Positions 38,018 to 47,186 of a stretch of DNA of 64,000 nt are shown piece after piece (position 1 is the stretch's first letter; every line of letters begins with the position of its first letter). Origin of the DNA: Myxococcus landrumus (GTDB lineage: Bacteria; Myxococcota; Myxococcia; Myxococcales; Myxococcaceae); the NCBI RefSeq assembly GCF_017301635.1, contig NZ_CP071091.1, positions 773,001 to 837,000 of the forward strand, written 5' to 3'. Both the position numbers and the translations under genes were made by a program. The notes beneath the pieces were generated by a model. That model had not been told where the DNA came from. It made no database searches and saw nothing but the letters and a program-made list of their open reading frames with translations.

Positions 38018-38068
38018 GCCACGCGTCGCGGCTTGCCTTCGCCGCGCGCTCCCGTTATCGCGGAGGTC

Positions 38069-39382
38069 ATGACAGCCTCCCTGGTCCTCCTGGGTTCCGG
38101 ATACACGCTGACGCGGCTCGCGGTGGCGCAAGCGCAGACGGGGCGGGAGGTGCTCGCCGCCACGCGGGATGCCTCCCGGCGCGAGGAGCTCCAGCGCGCG
38201 GGGGCTCGCATCGTGTCGCTCGAGGATGCGCTGCTCCAGACGCGCGACGCGCACGTCGTCGTGTCCATTCCACCCGAGGCCGGGCTCGATGTGGCCATCG
38301 CCGAGGCGCTCGCGGCGCGGCCCCCGGCGCGACTCATCTACTTGTCCTCCACCGGTGTCTACGGCTCCGCGCGCGGCGCCGTGGACGAGGACACCCCGGT
38401 GGATGTCGCCTGGCCCGCGTCGCTCCCTCGCCTGGAGTCGGAGTCGCGCTACCTGCCGTTGGGCGCGATGGTGCTGCGCATCGCGGGCATCTACGGCCCG
38501 GGCCGCGGCGCGCACTCCCGCTTGTTGTCGGGGACGCTCCGGGTGCCGGACCACGGCGGGCGCATCTCGCGAATCCACGTGGACGACCTGTGCGCGGCCA
38601 TCCTCGTCGCGTTGGAGCACGGCGCTCCGGGGGCGCTCTATTGCGTGGCGGATGACCGCGCAGTGCCGCTCGAGGAGACGGCGGGTTGGCTTGCGCGCCG
38701 GTTGGGCCTGTCGCCCCCGCCGCGAGTCCCGCTGGAGACGCTGCACGAGTCCCTGCGCGGCGACCGCGCCATCTCCAACGCCCGGCTCAAGCACCTGGGG
38801 TGGACGCCTCGCTATCCGGACTACGTCGCGGGTTTCTCCGCGGTGCTGGAGGCCGAGGGCCGCACGAGCGCCGAGGGCGACATCGTCCTCCGTCCGGTGC
38901 TGCCCGAGGAGGCGGAGGCGCTGCACGCCCTGCGGCTGCGCGCGTTGAAGGAGCACCCCGAGGCGTTCGGGACGTCATTCGTGGAGGAGTCGGCGCTCTC
39001 GCTCGACGTGGTGCGCGCCCGGCTGGTGGCCAGCGACAAGCAGCGGGTGATGGGCGCCTACGACGGGACGCGGCTGGTGGGCATGGGCGGAGTTCGCGCG
39101 GAGCCCCGCATCAAGTGTGCGCACAAGGCCGTCATCTGGGGCATGTACGTGGCCTCGGAGGTCCGCTCGCGCGGCGTGGGCCGGCGCCTGCTCCAGTCCC
39201 TCGTGACGGAGGCCCGCAAGCTTCCCGGAGTCGAGCAGCTCATGCTCATCGTGGTCGCCAGCAACGCCTCCGCCCACGCGCTGTACCGCTCCATGGGCTT
39301 CCAGACCTATGGCGTCGAGCCTCGGGCCCTGAAGATTGGCGGGGCCTATGTCGACGAGGAGCTGATGGTGTTGCGGCTCTGA
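38069..39382 (+). CDS. NAD(P)-epimerase fused to GNAT acetyltransferase
   Basis: The 437-residue protein joins two domains. The first (about 1-275) is an extended SDR/epimerase-like fold with LVLLGSGYTLTRLA at the N-terminus, YLSSTGVYG and a YGPGRG segment, similar to YeeZ-type epimerases. From about residue 285, GDIVLRPVLPEEAEALHALR begins a GNAT domain, with VASEVRSRGVGRRLLQSL as the acetyl-CoA site. Both parts look intact, and no stop or frame change separates them. The substrate is unknown. It starts soon after the activator gene, on the same strand. Confidence 0.85.
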   Translation: MTASLVLLGSGYTLTRLAVAQAQTGREVLAATRDASRREELQRAGARIVSLEDALLQTRDAHVVVSIPPEAGLDVAIAEALAARPPARLIYLSSTGVYGSARGAVDEDTPVDVAWPASLPRLESESRYLPLGAMVLRIAGIYGPGRGAHSRLLSGTLRVPDHGGRISRIHVDDLCAAILVALEHGAPGALYCVADDRAVPLEETAGWLARRLGLSPPPRVPLETLHESLRGDRAISNARLKHLGWTPRYPDYVAGFSAVLEAEGRTSAEGDIVLRPVLPEEAEALHALRLRALKEHPEAFGTSFVEESALSLDVVRARLVASDKQRVMGAYDGTRLVGMGGVRAEPRIKCAHKAVIWGMYVASEVRSRGVGRRLLQSLVTEARKLPGVEQLMLIVVASNASAHALYRSMGFQTYGVEPRALKIGGAYVDEELMVLRL

Positions 39383-39433: not shown

Positions 39434-39544
39434 GGGTTCACGGAAGGGTGACAGATCCAGAAGGCAGTGGTGTTCCAGGGAGCGGAGGATGCGGTGGTGG
39501 CCTGGTCCCTGGGGCCGGCTGACCGCGTTGGAGGCTTCGTGAGC

Positions 39545-40357
39545 ATGGCCCTGACCACCCCTGACTGGCTGCTGGAGCGGATTGCCCTGGGCGAGCTGCC
39601 CGAGGATTCGCTCGCCGCCGCCCGCGCCAAGCTGGAGCTGGAGTCGCATGGGCCGTCCCGGCTCGCGCGCCTGGAGGCGGACTCGCGCGAGACGCTCACG
39701 CGGCATCCGCCCGAGGCGGTGGCTCGCGAGGTGGCCCGCCGGCGCCGCACCGCGAGCCTCGTGGCCGACGCGGCGCGGCAGCCGGAGTCGCAGGGATGGC
39801 ATGGCCTGTCGCTCAGTGTGCCGGTGGCGGCCTCGCTGGTGTTGCTGCTCCTGTCCGTCCAGCCGGACATGGCCCTGGAGCCACCGGGGCTGACTCCCGC
39901 GCGGGTGGAGCTGATGGAGACCGTGGGCATCAAGGGCACGGCGCGGCTCCTGGTGTACCGCCAGGACGAGGGGACGGTGGAGCTGCTGATGGACCGCGCG
40001 CGTGCCCAGCGCGGTGACCTGCTCCAGCTCAGCTACCTTTCCGGAGGCCGGCGCCATGGTGTGGTGGTCTCCGTGGATGGTCGGGGCGCGGTGACACTGC
40101 ACCACCCCACCGCGTTGATGGGCTCTACGTCGCTCGAGGGCGGCGACGCGGTGTCGCTGACCCATTCGTACGAGCTCGACGATGCCCCCGGCTTCGAGCG
40201 TTTCTTCTTCGTGACCTCGGACTCACCCGTGGATGTCGGAGCTGTGCTACAGGCCGCTCGACTGTTGGCCCGACACCCCTCCGAGGCGAGCATCCGGCCG
40301 CTTCCCCTGCCGCGTACGCTGGCCCAGACATCCTTTACGTTGGAGAAAGTGCCGTGA
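39545..40357 (+). CDS. Anti-sigma-like membrane protein ahead of the caspase gene
   Basis: The 270-residue protein has a charged cytoplasmic N-terminal part of about 90 residues (DWLLERIALGELPEDSLAAAR) that resembles an anti-sigma or regulatory module. One membrane segment follows (SLSVPVAASLVLLLLSV, about 91-107), then an extracytoplasmic domain of strands and loops (VELLMDRARAQRGDLLQLSYLSG). There is no zinc-binding motif, so membership in the anti-sigma family is only suggested. The last base of its stop codon is the first base of the next ATG, so the two genes are tightly coupled. The ATG at 39545 follows the TTCGTGAGC context; no strong ribosome site is visible. Confidence 0.55.
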   Translation: MALTTPDWLLERIALGELPEDSLAAARAKLELESHGPSRLARLEADSRETLTRHPPEAVAREVARRRRTASLVADAARQPESQGWHGLSLSVPVAASLVLLLLSVQPDMALEPPGLTPARVELMETVGIKGTARLLVYRQDEGTVELLMDRARAQRGDLLQLSYLSGGRRHGVVVSVDGRGAVTLHHPTALMGSTSLEGGDAVSLTHSYELDDAPGFERFFFVTSDSPVDVGAVLQAARLLARHPSEASIRPLPLPRTLAQTSFTLEKVP

Positions 40358-42648
40358 TGGCGCGGTCACTCCTGTTCCTGTCCCTGTTCCTCCCCGCCGT
40401 GGCCTCGGCGGCTCCCTCGGATTCCAACGCCGCGCCCGCCGCCGTGCGTCGTCTGGCGCTGCTGGTGGGTGTCAACGACGGTGGCCCCGGCCGCGCGCGG
40501 CTGCGCTACGCCGTCACCGACGCGAACTCCTTCGGCCAGGTGCTGGAGGAGCTGGGCGGTGTCCAACCCCAAGACCGGCTGATGATGCTGGAGGGGGACC
40601 GCGCGGCGCTGGAGAACGCGCTGGCGCGCTTCAAGGCCATGGTCGCCGCCGCGAAGTCTCCGGGCGGGCGCACCGAGGCGCTCATCTACTACTCGGGCCA
40701 CTCCGACGAAGAGGGCCTGCTGCTCCACAAGGACCGCTTCGGCTACCGCGAGCTGCGTCAGGCGCTGGAGCAGCTTCCGGCCGACGTGCGCATCGCCATC
40801 CTGGACTCGTGCGCCTCCGGAACGCTGGCGCGGCAGAAGGGCGGCGTGCGGCGTCCGGCCTTCCTCGTGGACGCGTCCACCGCGGTGCGCGGCCACGCCA
40901 TCCTCACCTCGTCGTCGGAGGACGAGGTGTCCCAGGAGTCCGACCGCATCGGCGGCTCGTTCTTCACGCACAACCTCGTCTCGGGCATGCGCGGCGCGGC
41001 GGATGCGACCGGCGATGGCCGCGTCACGCTCCACGAGGCCTACCAGTTCGCCTTCCACGAGACGCTGGCGCGCACCGAGCGCACTCGCGGCGGCGCGCAG
41101 CACCCCGCCTATGACATCGAGCTGGCCGGCACCGGCGAGCTGGTGATGACGGACCTGCGCACCACGTCCGCCGTGCTGGTGGTGGGGGAGGGCGTCGAGG
41201 GCCGCCTGTTCATCCGCGACCAGCCCGGGCGGCTGGTGGTGGAGCTCAACAAGCTGGCGGGACGCTCCACGGAGCTGGGCCTCCAGCCCGGAAGCTACAC
41301 GGTGATGCGGGAGTCGCGCGGCGCCAGCTCCCAGGCAACGCTGGTAGTGGACAAGGGCGGGCGCACGGTGCTGGCCGACAGCGCCTTCCTGCCGATGATG
41401 GGTGAACTGACCGCGATGCGCGGTGGCTCGGCCGTGGTGGGTGGAGACAGCCTCGCCATGACGTCCTCGGTGGAGGACTCGGGCCGTCGCCGCCGCTTCC
41501 TCAACGTGGGACTCGCGCCCAAGCTGCAGACCAACAGCCTCTTCGGGGACACCAGCGTGGACAACGCGCTGTCCTTGTCGCTGGGCCTCGCGACCATGGG
41601 CCGGCTGGATGGCTTCGCCCTGGCGATGGGCGCGAACTGGAATGCGGACTCCGTTCGCGGCGTGCAGACCTCCTTGGGTGCGAACGTCGTGAACGGGCAC
41701 GTGAACGGCGCGCAGTTCACCATCGGCGGCAACTGGGTCAACGGCTCCGTCGAGGGCGCGCAGTTCGCCGTGGGCGGCAACTATGCCAGCGAGCGCGTGG
41801 AGGGCATCCAGGCCGCGGTGGGCATCAACATCGCGCGCAAGGGCGGCATGATGGGCCAGCTCGGCGTGGGGGCCAGCATTTCGAGCATGTCGATGAAGGG
41901 CGCGCAGCTCGCGGTGGGCACGAGCTGGGTGGACGGCGACTTCGAGGGCTACCAGGCGGCGGTCGGCCTCAACATGGTGCGCGGGCACATGAAGGGCATC
42001 CAGATGTCCTCGGGCGTGAACTACGTGGCCTCGGCCAAAGGCGCGCAGCTGTCGATCCTCAACATCGGCGGCGACGTCCGAGGCATGCAGCTGGGCCTCA
42101 TCAACGTCGCCGGGAAGATGAACGGCCTCCAACTGGGACTCATCAACGTGTCGCAGGAGCTGGAGTCGGGCGTCCCGGTGGGCCTGCTCAACATCGTGCG
42201 CAACGGCCAGTTCCACGTCGAGGCCTTCGGCAGCGACTTCAACTACGCCAACGTCTCCCTCAAGGTCGGCAGCCGCTATCTCTACACGACGCTGGTGGTG
42301 GGCATGGGCTCCATCCGCACGCGAGGCCCCAGCCACTGGTCCACGGGCGTGGGCATCGGCGGGCACTTCCCGGTGACGGAGCGGCTCTTCGTCGACGTGG
42401 ACGTGGTGACCAACGGCATCCACGAGTGGAAGGGCGGCGAAGGCAACCGCCTCCTGCACCAGGCCCGGCTCATGCTGGGCTACCAGGTGGCCAACCACTT
42501 CGCCATCATCGCGGGCCCCACGGCCAACCTCCTCCACGGGTTCGATGGCGAGGCGGTGACTCCGCTGAGCCACCTGGGCACCGCGGGCTCGACCACCAAC
42601 AAGGAAGCCATCTGGTGGCCGGGCCTGCAGGTGGGCCTGCGCATCTGA
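40357..42648 (+). CDS. Secreted caspase-like protein fused to a surface-repeat barrel
   Basis: The 763-residue protein has a signal peptide (ARSLLFLSLFLPAVASAAPS). A caspase-fold (metacaspase/peptidase C14) domain spans residues about 25-250, with catalytic His in IYYSGHSDEEG and catalytic Cys in ILDSCASG. After a linker, residues about 390-640 hold many short repeats of the kind G-x-N-V-V-N-G-x-x-x-G-A-Q and GLQLGLINV, typical of LA_2272-type surface-repeat proteins. The end is barrel-like, with the C-terminal WPGLQVGLRI a likely outer membrane beta signal. It would be a caspase tied to an outer membrane barrel. ATG 40357 overlaps the preceding stop. Confidence 0.85.
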   Translation: MARSLLFLSLFLPAVASAAPSDSNAAPAAVRRLALLVGVNDGGPGRARLRYAVTDANSFGQVLEELGGVQPQDRLMMLEGDRAALENALARFKAMVAAAKSPGGRTEALIYYSGHSDEEGLLLHKDRFGYRELRQALEQLPADVRIAILDSCASGTLARQKGGVRRPAFLVDASTAVRGHAILTSSSEDEVSQESDRIGGSFFTHNLVSGMRGAADATGDGRVTLHEAYQFAFHETLARTERTRGGAQHPAYDIELAGTGELVMTDLRTTSAVLVVGEGVEGRLFIRDQPGRLVVELNKLAGRSTELGLQPGSYTVMRESRGASSQATLVVDKGGRTVLADSAFLPMMGELTAMRGGSAVVGGDSLAMTSSVEDSGRRRRFLNVGLAPKLQTNSLFGDTSVDNALSLSLGLATMGRLDGFALAMGANWNADSVRGVQTSLGANVVNGHVNGAQFTIGGNWVNGSVEGAQFAVGGNYASERVEGIQAAVGINIARKGGMMGQLGVGASISSMSMKGAQLAVGTSWVDGDFEGYQAAVGLNMVRGHMKGIQMSSGVNYVASAKGAQLSILNIGGDVRGMQLGLINVAGKMNGLQLGLINVSQELESGVPVGLLNIVRNGQFHVEAFGSDFNYANVSLKVGSRYLYTTLVVGMGSIRTRGPSHWSTGVGIGGHFPVTERLFVDVDVVTNGIHEWKGGEGNRLLHQARLMLGYQVANHFAIIAGPTANLLHGFDGEAVTPLSHLGTAGSTTNKEAIWWPGLQVGLRI

Positions 42649-44771: not shown

Positions 44772-45596
44772 TCAGGCCACGCCGTAGCTGCCGAGGACCC
44801 GCAGGGTGATGCAGGCTGCTTGAGCGGCCTCCACCGCCTCGCGCACCCGCGGGTCCTCCAGCGCGCCGTCCACGTCCAGGCACCACACGTACTCCCACGC
44901 GCGGCGCTGCGGCCGGGACTCCAGCCGGGACACTTCCAGCCCGCGTCCGGAGAACGCCCCCAGCACGCGGTACAGCGCGCCGGACTCGTTCTGCACGGTG
45001 AAGGCGAGCGCCGTCTTGCGCCGCTTCCACTCGCGCGGCGGCGCGAGCCCCAACGTGACGAAGCGCGTGTAGTTGTCCGGAGAGTCCTCTACGCCTTCCT
45101 CCAGGACGTTCAGCCCGTACAGCTCCGCGGAGGCGCGGCTGGCGATGGCGCCCGTGCGCGGCGGCGTCTCCTCGGCGACCTTGCGCGCGGCGATGGCGGT
45201 GTTGGCCTCGGGGATGGGCTGGATGCCGCGCCGCCGCAGATAGCCCGCGCACTGGGACAGGGCCTGGGGATGCGAGAGCACCCGCTCGACGTCCGCGAGC
45301 GCGAGGCCCGGCGGCGCGACGAGGCAGTGGCGGATGCGCAGCGACATCTCGCCGGTGATGGGGACATCGTGCTCCAGGAGCAGGTCCACGTTCTCCGCCA
45401 CCGGGCCTCCCAGCGAGCTCTCCACGGGGACCACGCCGCCGTCCACGCGGCCTTCGGCCACCGCCTCGAACACGGCGCGGAAGGTGGGGCAGGGGACTGC
45501 TTCGACGTGCGGCCCGTGGAGCGCGCGCAGCGCCTCTTCTCCATAGGCGCCTCGCTCTCCCTGGAAGGCGATGCGACGCGGAGACGACTCAGCCAT
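44772..45596 (-). CDS. pheA: Prephenate dehydratase
   Basis: The 274-residue protein is a stand-alone prephenate dehydratase, making phenylpyruvate for phenylalanine. The catalytic domain has FQGERGAYGEEAL, VVPVESSLGGPVAENVDLL and the catalytic TRF in NYTRFVTLG (about residues 168-176). The C-terminal ACT domain (NESGALYRVL, VSRLESRP) binds phenylalanine for feedback control. Its start overlaps the stop of the upstream gene by eight bases. A second, bifunctional dehydratase sits directly upstream, so the pair is a duplication in tandem. Confidence 0.9.
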   Translation of the reverse strand: MAESSPRRIAFQGERGAYGEEALRALHGPHVEAVPCPTFRAVFEAVAEGRVDGGVVPVESSLGGPVAENVDLLLEHDVPITGEMSLRIRHCLVAPPGLALADVERVLSHPQALSQCAGYLRRRGIQPIPEANTAIAARKVAEETPPRTGAIASRASAELYGLNVLEEGVEDSPDNYTRFVTLGLAPPREWKRRKTALAFTVQNESGALYRVLGAFSGRGLEVSRLESRPQRRAWEYVWCLDVDGALEDPRVREAVEAAQAACITLRVLGSYGVA

Positions 45597-46728
45597 GGCT
45601 CCCCTCGGCTCGGGCATAGGTGCCCAGCACTCGCAGGAAGGAGGTCAGCGGACGGATGTCCTCGATGGCGGCCGTCAGTGGCGCGGAGGCCGCGTGGCCC
45701 TCCACGTCCACGTAGAAGCGGTACTGCCACGGGCTGCCCGGAATCGGCCGCGACTCCAGCTTGCTCAAGTTGACGCCGCGCAACGTCAGCCGCTGGAGCA
45801 TCTCGCCCAGCGTGCCGGGCTTGTGCTCCAGCACCATGAGCAGCGACGTCTTGCAGGGGGCATCGGGCGAGAGCGGCGTGGCCTCGCGCCCCACCTCGAC
45901 GAAGCGCGTGTAGTCGGACTCGGGCTGGAGCTCGCGCGCCAGCACCTCCAGGCCGAAGCGCTGCGCGGCCGTCTCGCTCGCGATGGCGGCGACGGTCGGG
46001 TCATTGCGCTCGCGCACCTTCTGCGCCGCGCCGCCAGTGTCCACGTCCGGCACGGCCCGGGCCCATGGAAGCTTCTCGCGAAGGAACGTCTCGCACTGGG
46101 CCAGGGCCTGCGGATGGGAGAGCACCTCGCGCAGTCCCTCCAGCTTCGCGCCCGGCAGGCCCAGGAGCCGGTGGTCCACCTGGCTCACCAGCTCCGCGGT
46201 GATGACCACGCCGCCCTCGGCGAGCAGGTCATACGTCTCGTTCATGCTGCCCGCGGTGGTGTTCTCGATGGGCAGCAGCGCCAGGTCCTGCTCACCGCGG
46301 CGCAGCGCCTCCACCACCTCGCGCGAGTGGTCGAACCCGGTGAGCAGCACACCGCCGGAGCGGCCCGCGTAGAGGCGGCGCGCGGCCAGGTGGCTGTAGG
46401 AGCCCTCGATGCCCGGATAGCCCACGCGCAACGGCGTCGTGTCCTGCCGGGTGACGAGCGCCTGTTGCCGGGCCACGGACATGTCGATGACCAGCCGCCA
46501 GATGCGCTCCACCTCGTGCGGGTCCAGCTTGTGCTCGGCGGCGCGCGTGCGGATGCGCCGCAAGAGCAGGTCTTCTCTTCGCTGGTCCCGGAGAGGCGCC
46601 GCCGTGGCCAGCTTGGAGCGGGCCACATCGTCCGCCAGGTCCATGCGGCGGCGGAGTGCGTCGAGAATCTCCTCGTCGATGGCCTCGATGGCATCGCGCA
46701 GCGCGCCCAGGTCCAGCGGGGAAGTCAT
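45589..46728 (-). CDS. pheA: Chorismate mutase-prephenate dehydratase (P-protein)
   Basis: The 379-residue protein starts with an AroQ chorismate mutase domain (ALRDAIEAIDEEILDALRRR, about residues 7-90). A prephenate dehydratase domain follows (YPGIEGSYSHLAARRL, LPIENTTAGSMNETYDLL, DYTRFVEVG), then an ACT domain (HKPGTLGEMLQRL, LSKLESRP). It therefore does two consecutive steps toward phenylalanine. The start at 46728 overlaps the acetyltransferase gene upstream by four bases. All motifs are intact, so both dehydratases in this locus should be active. Confidence 0.92.
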   Translation of the reverse strand: MTSPLDLGALRDAIEAIDEEILDALRRRMDLADDVARSKLATAAPLRDQRREDLLLRRIRTRAAEHKLDPHEVERIWRLVIDMSVARQQALVTRQDTTPLRVGYPGIEGSYSHLAARRLYAGRSGGVLLTGFDHSREVVEALRRGEQDLALLPIENTTAGSMNETYDLLAEGGVVITAELVSQVDHRLLGLPGAKLEGLREVLSHPQALAQCETFLREKLPWARAVPDVDTGGAAQKVRERNDPTVAAIASETAAQRFGLEVLARELQPESDYTRFVEVGREATPLSPDAPCKTSLLMVLEHKPGTLGEMLQRLTLRGVNLSKLESRPIPGSPWQYRFYVDVEGHAASAPLTAAIEDIRPLTSFLRVLGTYARAEGSHG

Positions 46729-47186
46729 CGCACGGACTCCTTCAGCTCTCGCGACATGAGGTGGTGGGGGCCGATTCCGGGCAGCTCGAACACGTCGCCG
46801 TGCTGGATGAAGCCGAGCGAGCGGTAGAAACCGGACGCCGTCGCGCGGGCGTTGCACCACACCTGCGTGCCCCGATGCTCCAGCGCGTGGTCCATGCAGG
46901 CCTTCAACAAGGCCGCGCCCAGGCCCTGGCCCTGTCGCCCTTGCTCCACGGCCATGCCGCGCAGTCGCCACGCGGTGATGGCCTTCAATGCGTAGGGGGG
47001 CGGCTCCCGATACAGTGACGCCACACCGAGCAGGCGGCCGTCCGAGTACAAGCCGAGATGGAGGGTGTCCTGGTCATCATCTCCTGGATAGACGACGGCC
47101 TCGGGAGGCTGGTGGGGGCGCAGGACGGCCCGGCGCAGCCCGCGCGTCTCGGCGGCTGGAATCCGGCGGATGTCTGGAGTGCTCAC
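46725..47186 (-). CDS. GNAT-family acetyltransferase
   Basis: The 153-residue protein has the GNAT acetyl-CoA signature: WRLRGMAVEQGRQGQGLGAALLKACMDH (written in pieces: RGMAVE then QGRQGQGLG, about residues 77-93), followed by NARATASGFYRSLGF. The substrate is not evident. GTG 47186 is preferred. It is the first gene of the three-gene minus-strand unit with the two prephenate dehydratases, overlapping the next start by four bases. Confidence 0.85.
   Translation of the reverse strand: MSTPDIRRIPAAETRGLRRAVLRPHQPPEAVVYPGDDDQDTLHLGLYSDGRLLGVASLYREPPPYALKAITAWRLRGMAVEQGRQGQGLGAALLKACMDHALEHRGTQVWCNARATASGFYRSLGFIQHGDVFELPGIGPHHLMSRELKESVR

Follow-up and report, generated by a model that had tools for sequence, protein, structure and literature searches.

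Sigma-70 factors stand in predicted operons with four of the five metacaspases of Myxococcus xanthus DK1622, and similar operons occur in Anaeromyxobacter, Haliangium, Sorangium, Ralstonia and Fibrobacter; cell death was put forward as a possible role of the M. xanthus metacaspases (Asplund-Samuelsson et al. 2012, PMC3501461). Here we analyse a caspase gene of Myxococcus landrumus that directly follows the gene of a putative membrane anti-sigma factor, in a stretch of 64,000 nucleotides (contig NZ_CP071091.1, forward-strand positions 773,001 to 837,000), hereafter the window. The caspase is predicted to be exported and fused, through a β-solenoid, to an outer-membrane barrel. We propose, with belief and doubt in equal measure, that it works in the periplasm, tethered to the outer membrane, where it would clip the anti-sigma factor and switch on an envelope regulon.

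The likeness to the M. xanthus systems lies in caspase genes forming operons with sigma-70 factors, but the window locus itself contains no sigma gene, and the operon section of PMC3501461 describes no anti-sigma factor for the middle gene, nor a barrel, solenoid, promoter or regulon. In a type III-E CRISPR system, the caspase-like CHAT protease Csx29 cleaves Csx30, an inhibitor of an extracytoplasmic function (ECF) sigma factor (PMC10028731). This Csx29–Csx30–CASP-sigma system, in which protease and inhibitor are encoded together with the sigma factor, is a precedent that supports a caspase acting on an ECF sigma inhibitor. Csx29 is, however, activated by RNA in a CRISPR effector complex and its cleavage has been demonstrated, whereas for the window protease export and anchoring in the outer membrane are predicted, and it would act on an anti-sigma factor that, unlike Csx30, spans the inner membrane.

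The same paper (PMC10028731) mentions the DegS–RseA–sigmaE envelope stress pathway of Escherichia coli. There too, a periplasmic protease and a membrane anti-sigma factor control an ECF sigma factor with an envelope regulon. DegS, however, is an inner-membrane serine protease, and the candidate protease here is a caspase on the outer membrane.

ECF sigma genes are also found near EACC2 caspases, another pairing of a caspase domain with an ECF sigma factor in the same neighbourhood; the main text of that paper mentions no signal peptide, outer membrane, periplasm or anti-sigma factor (PMC8195603). CHAT proteins have been described near ECF54 (PMC8999054). Compared with the LA_2272 and VC2662 surface repeat families, of which only the first has a model scoring above its cut-off here, the repeats of the window protein are fused to a caspase and then followed by a predicted eight-stranded barrel. 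Sigma–metacaspase operons have been known since 2012 (PMC3501461); in the literature searched, mostly titles and the beginnings of abstracts, we found no description of an outer-membrane tether, of an anti-sigma gene between sigma factor and caspase, or of the promoter.

A caspase fused to a predicted solenoid and barrel

The protein is encoded in a single open frame of 763 codons plus stop, and the first-pass annotation was right to place a signal peptide, a caspase domain and repeats in one reading frame. Judged by eye, its first 18 residues look like a Sec-type signal peptide. Residues 31-252 match the Peptidase_C14 profile of Pfam with 45 bits against a cut-off of 21.4, and both catalytic motifs are intact, as had been noticed: YYSGHS with His115 (40699-40701) and LDSCASG with Cys152 (40810-40812). 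These two residues are invariant in all 39 rows of an alignment (A1) of the window protein with 38 relatives, from which near-identical loci of the genus, loci truncated by contig ends (L064-L066, L068, L069; L and G numbers are our handles for loci and genomes) and caspases with other C-terminal domains (L003, L004, L005, L007) were omitted.

Asp55 and Asp150 are invariant across the same rows. We equate them with the acidic S1-pocket positions that are linked to Lys/Arg specificity in metacaspases (PMC6426788), which is consistent with Lys or Arg at P1; in a weak match (E 0.029) to a yeast metacaspase, Asp55 falls opposite an Asp. In the structure model, the caspase domain resembles caspases and metacaspases in fold (best Z-score 17.7). 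By profile and catalytic dyad, the window protein is a C14 caspase/metacaspase-like peptidase with predicted protease activity.

A Pfam scan of the fusion protein gave no match besides Peptidase_C14 at E ≤ 1. The reading as a defence system was dropped because no PADLOC model matched either the caspase fusion or the upstream anti-sigma-like protein at E ≤ 0.01, and so was identity with the EACC1 caspase system, as the window caspase scores 61.3 bits with the EACC1-associated caspase model (NF047832), far under its cut-off of 140.

The full-length fusion is present in all 27 genomes of the genus that were searched, the own genome included, and since matches there run over residues 1 to 762 or 763, the fused frame is not a product of chance. 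The same fusion, which the annotation had suggested looking for in other myxobacteria, also occurs in other myxobacterial families and in metagenome-assembled genomes (MAGs) labelled Latescibacterota and Gemmatimonadetes. By eye, the Gemmatimonadetes-labelled loci are very similar to the Latescibacterota-labelled ones, so their phylum label may be a binning matter. The fusion is not universal: 8 of 61 relatives yielded no match, and the matches listed for most genomes beyond the genus span either the caspase portion or the barrel portion alone. The two halves are not confined to separate genes, although one gene for a repeat barrel that lacks a caspase and another for a barrel by itself are found as well. 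Two loci labelled 'Comamonas sp. KCTC 72670' (L042 and L054) carry Myxococcus-type loci, and that genome label looks wrong.

What had been annotated as a repeat-rich outer-membrane barrel separates into two parts: a barrel is indeed predicted in the same chain, but it is formed by the C-terminal residues, the repeats being a solenoid. The LA_2272 surface repeat model (NF047436) reaches 28.4 bits against a cut-off of 25, and the VC2662 family model (NF047437) gives 29.6 bits, under its cut-off of 140. Between residues 435 and 592, G-x-Q units follow each other mostly 14-16 residues apart, with one double step at 483-515. The full-length protein was modelled with AlphaFold2 on the 39-row alignment (mean predicted local distance difference test, pLDDT, 74.5; predicted template-modelling score, pTM, 0.44). 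Its residues 378-586 match the HMW1 β-helix 2odl (Z 16.2 over 205 residues, 3.0 Å), the sole match covering the repeats among the 50 matches listed, with a Z-score that repeats inflate and with the repeats modelled within the full chain. Between some relatives, the number of repeats varies by 16-residue units. Repeats as the barrel wall were ruled out by the β-helix as best match, by this unit-wise variation and by a barrel formed by the last 156 residues alone; the repeat region is predicted to be a β-solenoid distinct from the barrel.

Folded alone, those last residues (608-763) give eight strands with pLDDT 85.4 and pTM 0.79, and the model matches a designed transmembrane barrel (6x9z, Z 15.1), OprF (14.0), OmpA (13.8) and NspA (13.6). 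The C-terminal domain has no Pfam or NCBIfam model above cut-off, and Foldseek with the barrel model returned no match at E ≤ 0.001 (the best, at 2.1e-3, being a porin). We prefer the outer-membrane reading because the protein has a putative signal peptide and because outer-membrane proteins are numerous among the matches, and predict an eight-stranded barrel of the OmpA/OprF type. Barrels of the OmpA type have both chain ends on the periplasmic side. The caspase therefore most likely faces the periplasm and not the cell surface, where the first-pass annotation had located it.

The anti-sigma-like gene, a distant sigma factor and a shared promoter element

The gene ahead of the caspase ends with a TGA at 40355-40357 and shares its last base with the caspase ATG at 40357, an overlap already recorded in the annotation. 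The GTG at 39467 proposed by the frame finder falls inside the promoter element described below; the conserved start is the ATG at 39545. Outside the genus, 23 of 34 genomes have a match to this protein, 60 matches being listed and 30 loci fetched and read. In every one of the 30, an ECF-like sigma gene lies upstream, and in 28 a caspase gene lies downstream. An anti-sigma homologue likewise precedes the caspase fusion in eight of eight loci from MAGs labelled Latescibacterota or Gemmatimonadota, two of them cut by a contig end.

The window protein has one predicted transmembrane segment, followed by a part, predicted to be periplasmic, that is conserved in the family; a comparable segment is found in each of 24 relatives aligned for spread (alignment A2) as well as in all 30 fetched loci, nine loci being common to both sets. 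All of them also carry a Lys-Gly pair (once Arg-Gly) 7-25 residues past this helix. A periplasmic domain resembling DUF4384 may follow: L003 and L004 match PF14326 below cut-off (17.9 and 19.1 bits against 27), and eight relatives scanned gave DUF4384 in four and zf-HC2 in three, every time below cut-off. A search of the own genome for DUF4384 yielded three sub-cut-off matches, none at the window locus. For a close relative at L084, anti-sigma models stay far below cut-off (21.8 of 225 bits and 20 of 100 bits). By gene context, the upstream protein is best read as a membrane anti-sigma factor that would bind a sigma factor; the single transmembrane segment and the sigma gene upstream of every relative read outside the genus lend support to the annotation, which had offered this as a possibility.

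The window operon has no sigma gene; an upstream gene that looks acetyltransferase-like by eye lies about 160 bases away. The own genome encodes one sigma factor of this type, at about 6.63 Mb (G000:C1:6630634-6631152), this being the query of the search and the next best match having an E value of 5.5e-25. In 26 of the 27 genomes of the genus, this sigma gene is followed by a second anti-sigma gene and then by the gene of a short protein that matches the fusion over its barrel end alone; the own-genome copy of this short protein starts, by eye, with a signal peptide. No sigma match came from G012, whose assembly is in 820 contigs. The sigma type is present in 35 of 61 genomes, 26 of the genus plus nine others, and in these nine the sigma factor, the anti-sigma factor and the caspase fusion all stand together. 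The L084 sigma factor scores above cut-off for Sigma70_r2, Sigma70_r4_2 and the ECF superfamily model TIGR02937; the one at L057 is below cut-off for Sigma70_r4_2 (23.2 against 25.7). Duplication and division of labour within the genus would be the simplest history of the split sigma and caspase loci.

Three side observations concern these loci. The barrel-only protein of L084 (G000:C1:6628000-6635000), which has neither caspase nor repeats, is possibly a decoy or a partner of the caspase fusion. The own genome has further operons of a sigma factor, an anti-sigma-like protein and an exported caspase (L071, L072, L074, L075), whose caspases end in other β-rich domains with one sub-threshold OMP_b-brl match (E 0.1). 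A second exported caspase–repeat–barrel fusion lies at L073 (G000:C1:5872000-5882000), in a same-strand cluster with exbB (by Pfam) and, by eye, ExbD- and TonB-like genes, a large receptor-like protein and a lipoprotein; the promoter element stands ahead of exbB with one mismatch.

The sigma locus and the window operon share an ECF-type promoter element, GGTGACA[GC]-N14-GGTGTT. Among loci of the genus, 25 of 27 carry it in exact form ahead of the window-type operon and 19 of 26 ahead of the sigma gene; the remaining two and seven, respectively, have one mismatch. Outside the genus, it precedes the sigma gene with at most one mismatch in six of nine genomes (G033, G034, G038, G041, G047, G057), and five of six MAG loci have it with two mismatches at the same spacing. 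Five genomes of the genus contain 39 exact hits, compared with none for the reversed control; in the own genome, the GGTGACAG form with at most one mismatch gives 15 hits, six of them exact, against four for the reversed control. An element common to all sigma/caspase operons was rejected, with no match upstream of the sigma gene in L071, L072, L074, L075 and L082 (the last counted as sigma-like by eye).

We read the targets at 38 loci, namely 8 of the own genome's 15 hits and 30 of the 39. The exact pattern is present in 37, which precede the sigma gene (4), the window-type anti-sigma gene (5), a P0005-like caspase-less repeat-barrel gene (5) and exbB (3). In the remaining 20, a crude filter flagged the first gene as encoding a lipoprotein or a signal peptide in 19, a count made with a gene picker that favours signal-peptide starts and with no genomic baseline for exported genes; the picked targets include a frame with poor coding statistics (L193) and a gene 436 bases away (L124). 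Three of these 20 first genes were scanned and encode two DUF2807 proteins and one S41 protease, a lipoprotein. As a set, the predicted targets look like an envelope regulon, likely including caspase-less repeat-barrel proteins and lipoproteins.

Features of the anti-sigma/caspase operon in window coordinates
Feature	Position	Strand	Evidence
ECF-type promoter element, GGTGACAG-N14-GGTGTT, ahead of the operon	39447..39474	+	shared with the region upstream of the sigma gene
Membrane anti-sigma-like gene, 270 aa, start ATG 39545	39545..40357	+	family A2, gene context
Predicted single transmembrane segment, anti-sigma residues 87-105	39803..39859	+	hydropathy scan
Conserved Lys-Gly, residues 130-131, periplasmic linker, candidate cleavage site	39932..39937	+	alignment
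DUF4384-like periplasmic domain (approximate)	39992..40216	+	alignment to L003, L004
Predicted exported caspase – β-solenoid – outer-membrane barrel fusion, 763 aa	40357..42648	+	frame, profile matches, alignment, structure models
Putative signal peptide, residues 1-18	40357..40410	+	by eye; hydrophobic N-terminus in most alignment rows
Caspase (C14) domain, residues 31-252	40447..41112	+	Pfam PF00656; fold matches
Small β-rich domain, residues ~263-339	41143..41373	+	secondary structure of model
LA_2272-type repeats, predicted β-solenoid, residues ~378-615	41488..42201	+	NF047436 above cut-off; HMW1 β-helix match
Predicted eight-stranded outer-membrane barrel, residues ~616-763	42202..42645	+	model of residues 608-763; structure matches

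Elsewhere in the window, and judged by eye, the gene upstream of the operon (38033-39382) seems to join an epimerase-like domain to a GNAT acetyltransferase in one frame, and two adjoining prephenate-dehydratase-like genes occupy 44772-46971 of the minus strand, one of them apparently a fusion with a chorismate mutase.

Sensor protease or regulon product

In the mechanism we favour, the operon would supply the membrane components for signalling through an ECF sigma factor. The anti-sigma factor would have its N-terminus in the cytoplasm, one transmembrane helix and the DUF4384-like domain in the periplasm. Opposite to it, the caspase would be exported and held by its C-terminal eight-stranded barrel in the outer membrane, with the β-solenoid as a spacer; export, folds and topology of both proteins are predictions. 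Upon an outer-membrane change or the loss of a partner, sensed by the barrel or the solenoid, the caspase would cut the periplasmic part of the anti-sigma factor, with Lys or Arg predicted at P1 and Lys130-Gly131 as a candidate site. This cut would start the release of the sigma factor, presumably the one encoded at 6.63 Mb, which would then turn on its own gene, the anti-sigma/caspase operon, lipoproteins and repeat-barrel proteins through the shared promoters.

We arrive at a tethered caspase cutting the anti-sigma factor because gene order, opposite membrane anchors, conservation of the active site and the shared promoter element all fit it. Domains, conservation, gene order and the promoter element can be read from the sequences themselves; gene order and topology, in turn, suggest a site-1 protease in the manner of DegS acting on RseA. 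The paralogous sigma/anti-sigma-like/caspase operons of the own genome provide further support. A wider claim can be made only tentatively, and we place it somewhat short of probable: that outer-membrane-tethered caspases are dedicated ECF site-1 proteases acting across the periplasm, in a module that extends beyond myxobacteria and that in Myxococcus was duplicated and split into sigma/anti-sigma/caspase-less barrel on one side and anti-sigma/full caspase on the other, with one promoter wiring both.

Several results weigh against this mechanism, in which the cleavage step itself is something we infer. The Lys-Gly pair is also kept in L152 and L155, which have no caspase gene within about 1.4 kb downstream; this weakens it as a caspase-specific substrate site and is why we call it only a candidate, and it may be structural. 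A caspase is not needed beside the sigma gene, as the sigma operon of the genus has a caspase-less barrel and the window operon has no sigma gene. No NCBIfam model matches the window anti-sigma-like protein, its sole Pfam match is below cut-off and at chance level (E 0.1), and four of the eight relatives scanned show neither zf-HC2 nor DUF4384. The promoter element was not found in three of the nine outside-genus genomes (G046, G058, G060) nor in one of the six MAG loci (L069). On the structural side, soluble barrels match the barrel model too (designed 6ohh, Z 13.7; avidin, 10.8), and the full-length model, with its pTM of 0.44, is of modest quality and leaves domain placement uncertain.

The presence of the promoter on the caspase operon itself fits an output as well as a sensor. 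Another protease might free the sigma factor, the exported caspase being a product of the regulon, an envelope quality-control or maturation protease that trims exported proteins. The second caspase–repeat–barrel fusion speaks for such an effector, as it stands in the exbB cluster, where the same element is present (one mismatch away from the pattern in the own genome) and the window anti-sigma factor has no hit; so does the S41 protease lipoprotein, another likely target of the promoter. We nevertheless hold an effector role to be rather unlikely, for it leaves unexplained why a caspase gene directly follows the anti-sigma gene in 28 of 30 loci outside the genus, why the pairing recurs in MAGs of other phyla, and why it persists in own-genome paralogues with a differing C-terminal domain.

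A caspase displayed outside the cell on a solenoid serving as passenger stalk, and acting on prey or kin cells, is an improbable alternative. Serine-protease autotransporters do have the order of the fusion, with a protease, a β-helix and a C-terminal outer-membrane barrel, and the HMW1 β-helix was the one solenoid match among the 50 matches listed. Yet type Va autotransporters would call for a twelve-stranded translocator, and here eight strands are predicted and Pfam matches nothing besides the caspase. An eight-stranded barrel offers no pore for a passenger, and a caspase at the surface would leave its tight link to an inner-membrane anti-sigma factor without explanation. More improbable still is a caspase serving as an autolysis enzyme in development or stress, along the lines of the programmed cell death proposed for the M. 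xanthus metacaspases (PMC3501461). Export, the predicted outer-membrane tether and the operon with an anti-sigma factor point to regulation instead. Homologues also occur in lineages that are not known for development.

The roles of bacterial caspase homologues are largely open, and for one of them this locus suggests a likely place, the periplasm with an outer-membrane tether, together with a candidate substrate in the neighbouring anti-sigma factor, a promoter and candidate output genes. If a tethered caspase does release the sigma factor, a cysteine-protease branch would be added to envelope-stress signalling, and the fold of a eukaryotic death protease would have a signalling job in bacteria. 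The caspase could then be the means by which envelope trouble is signalled to the genes of these bacteria.

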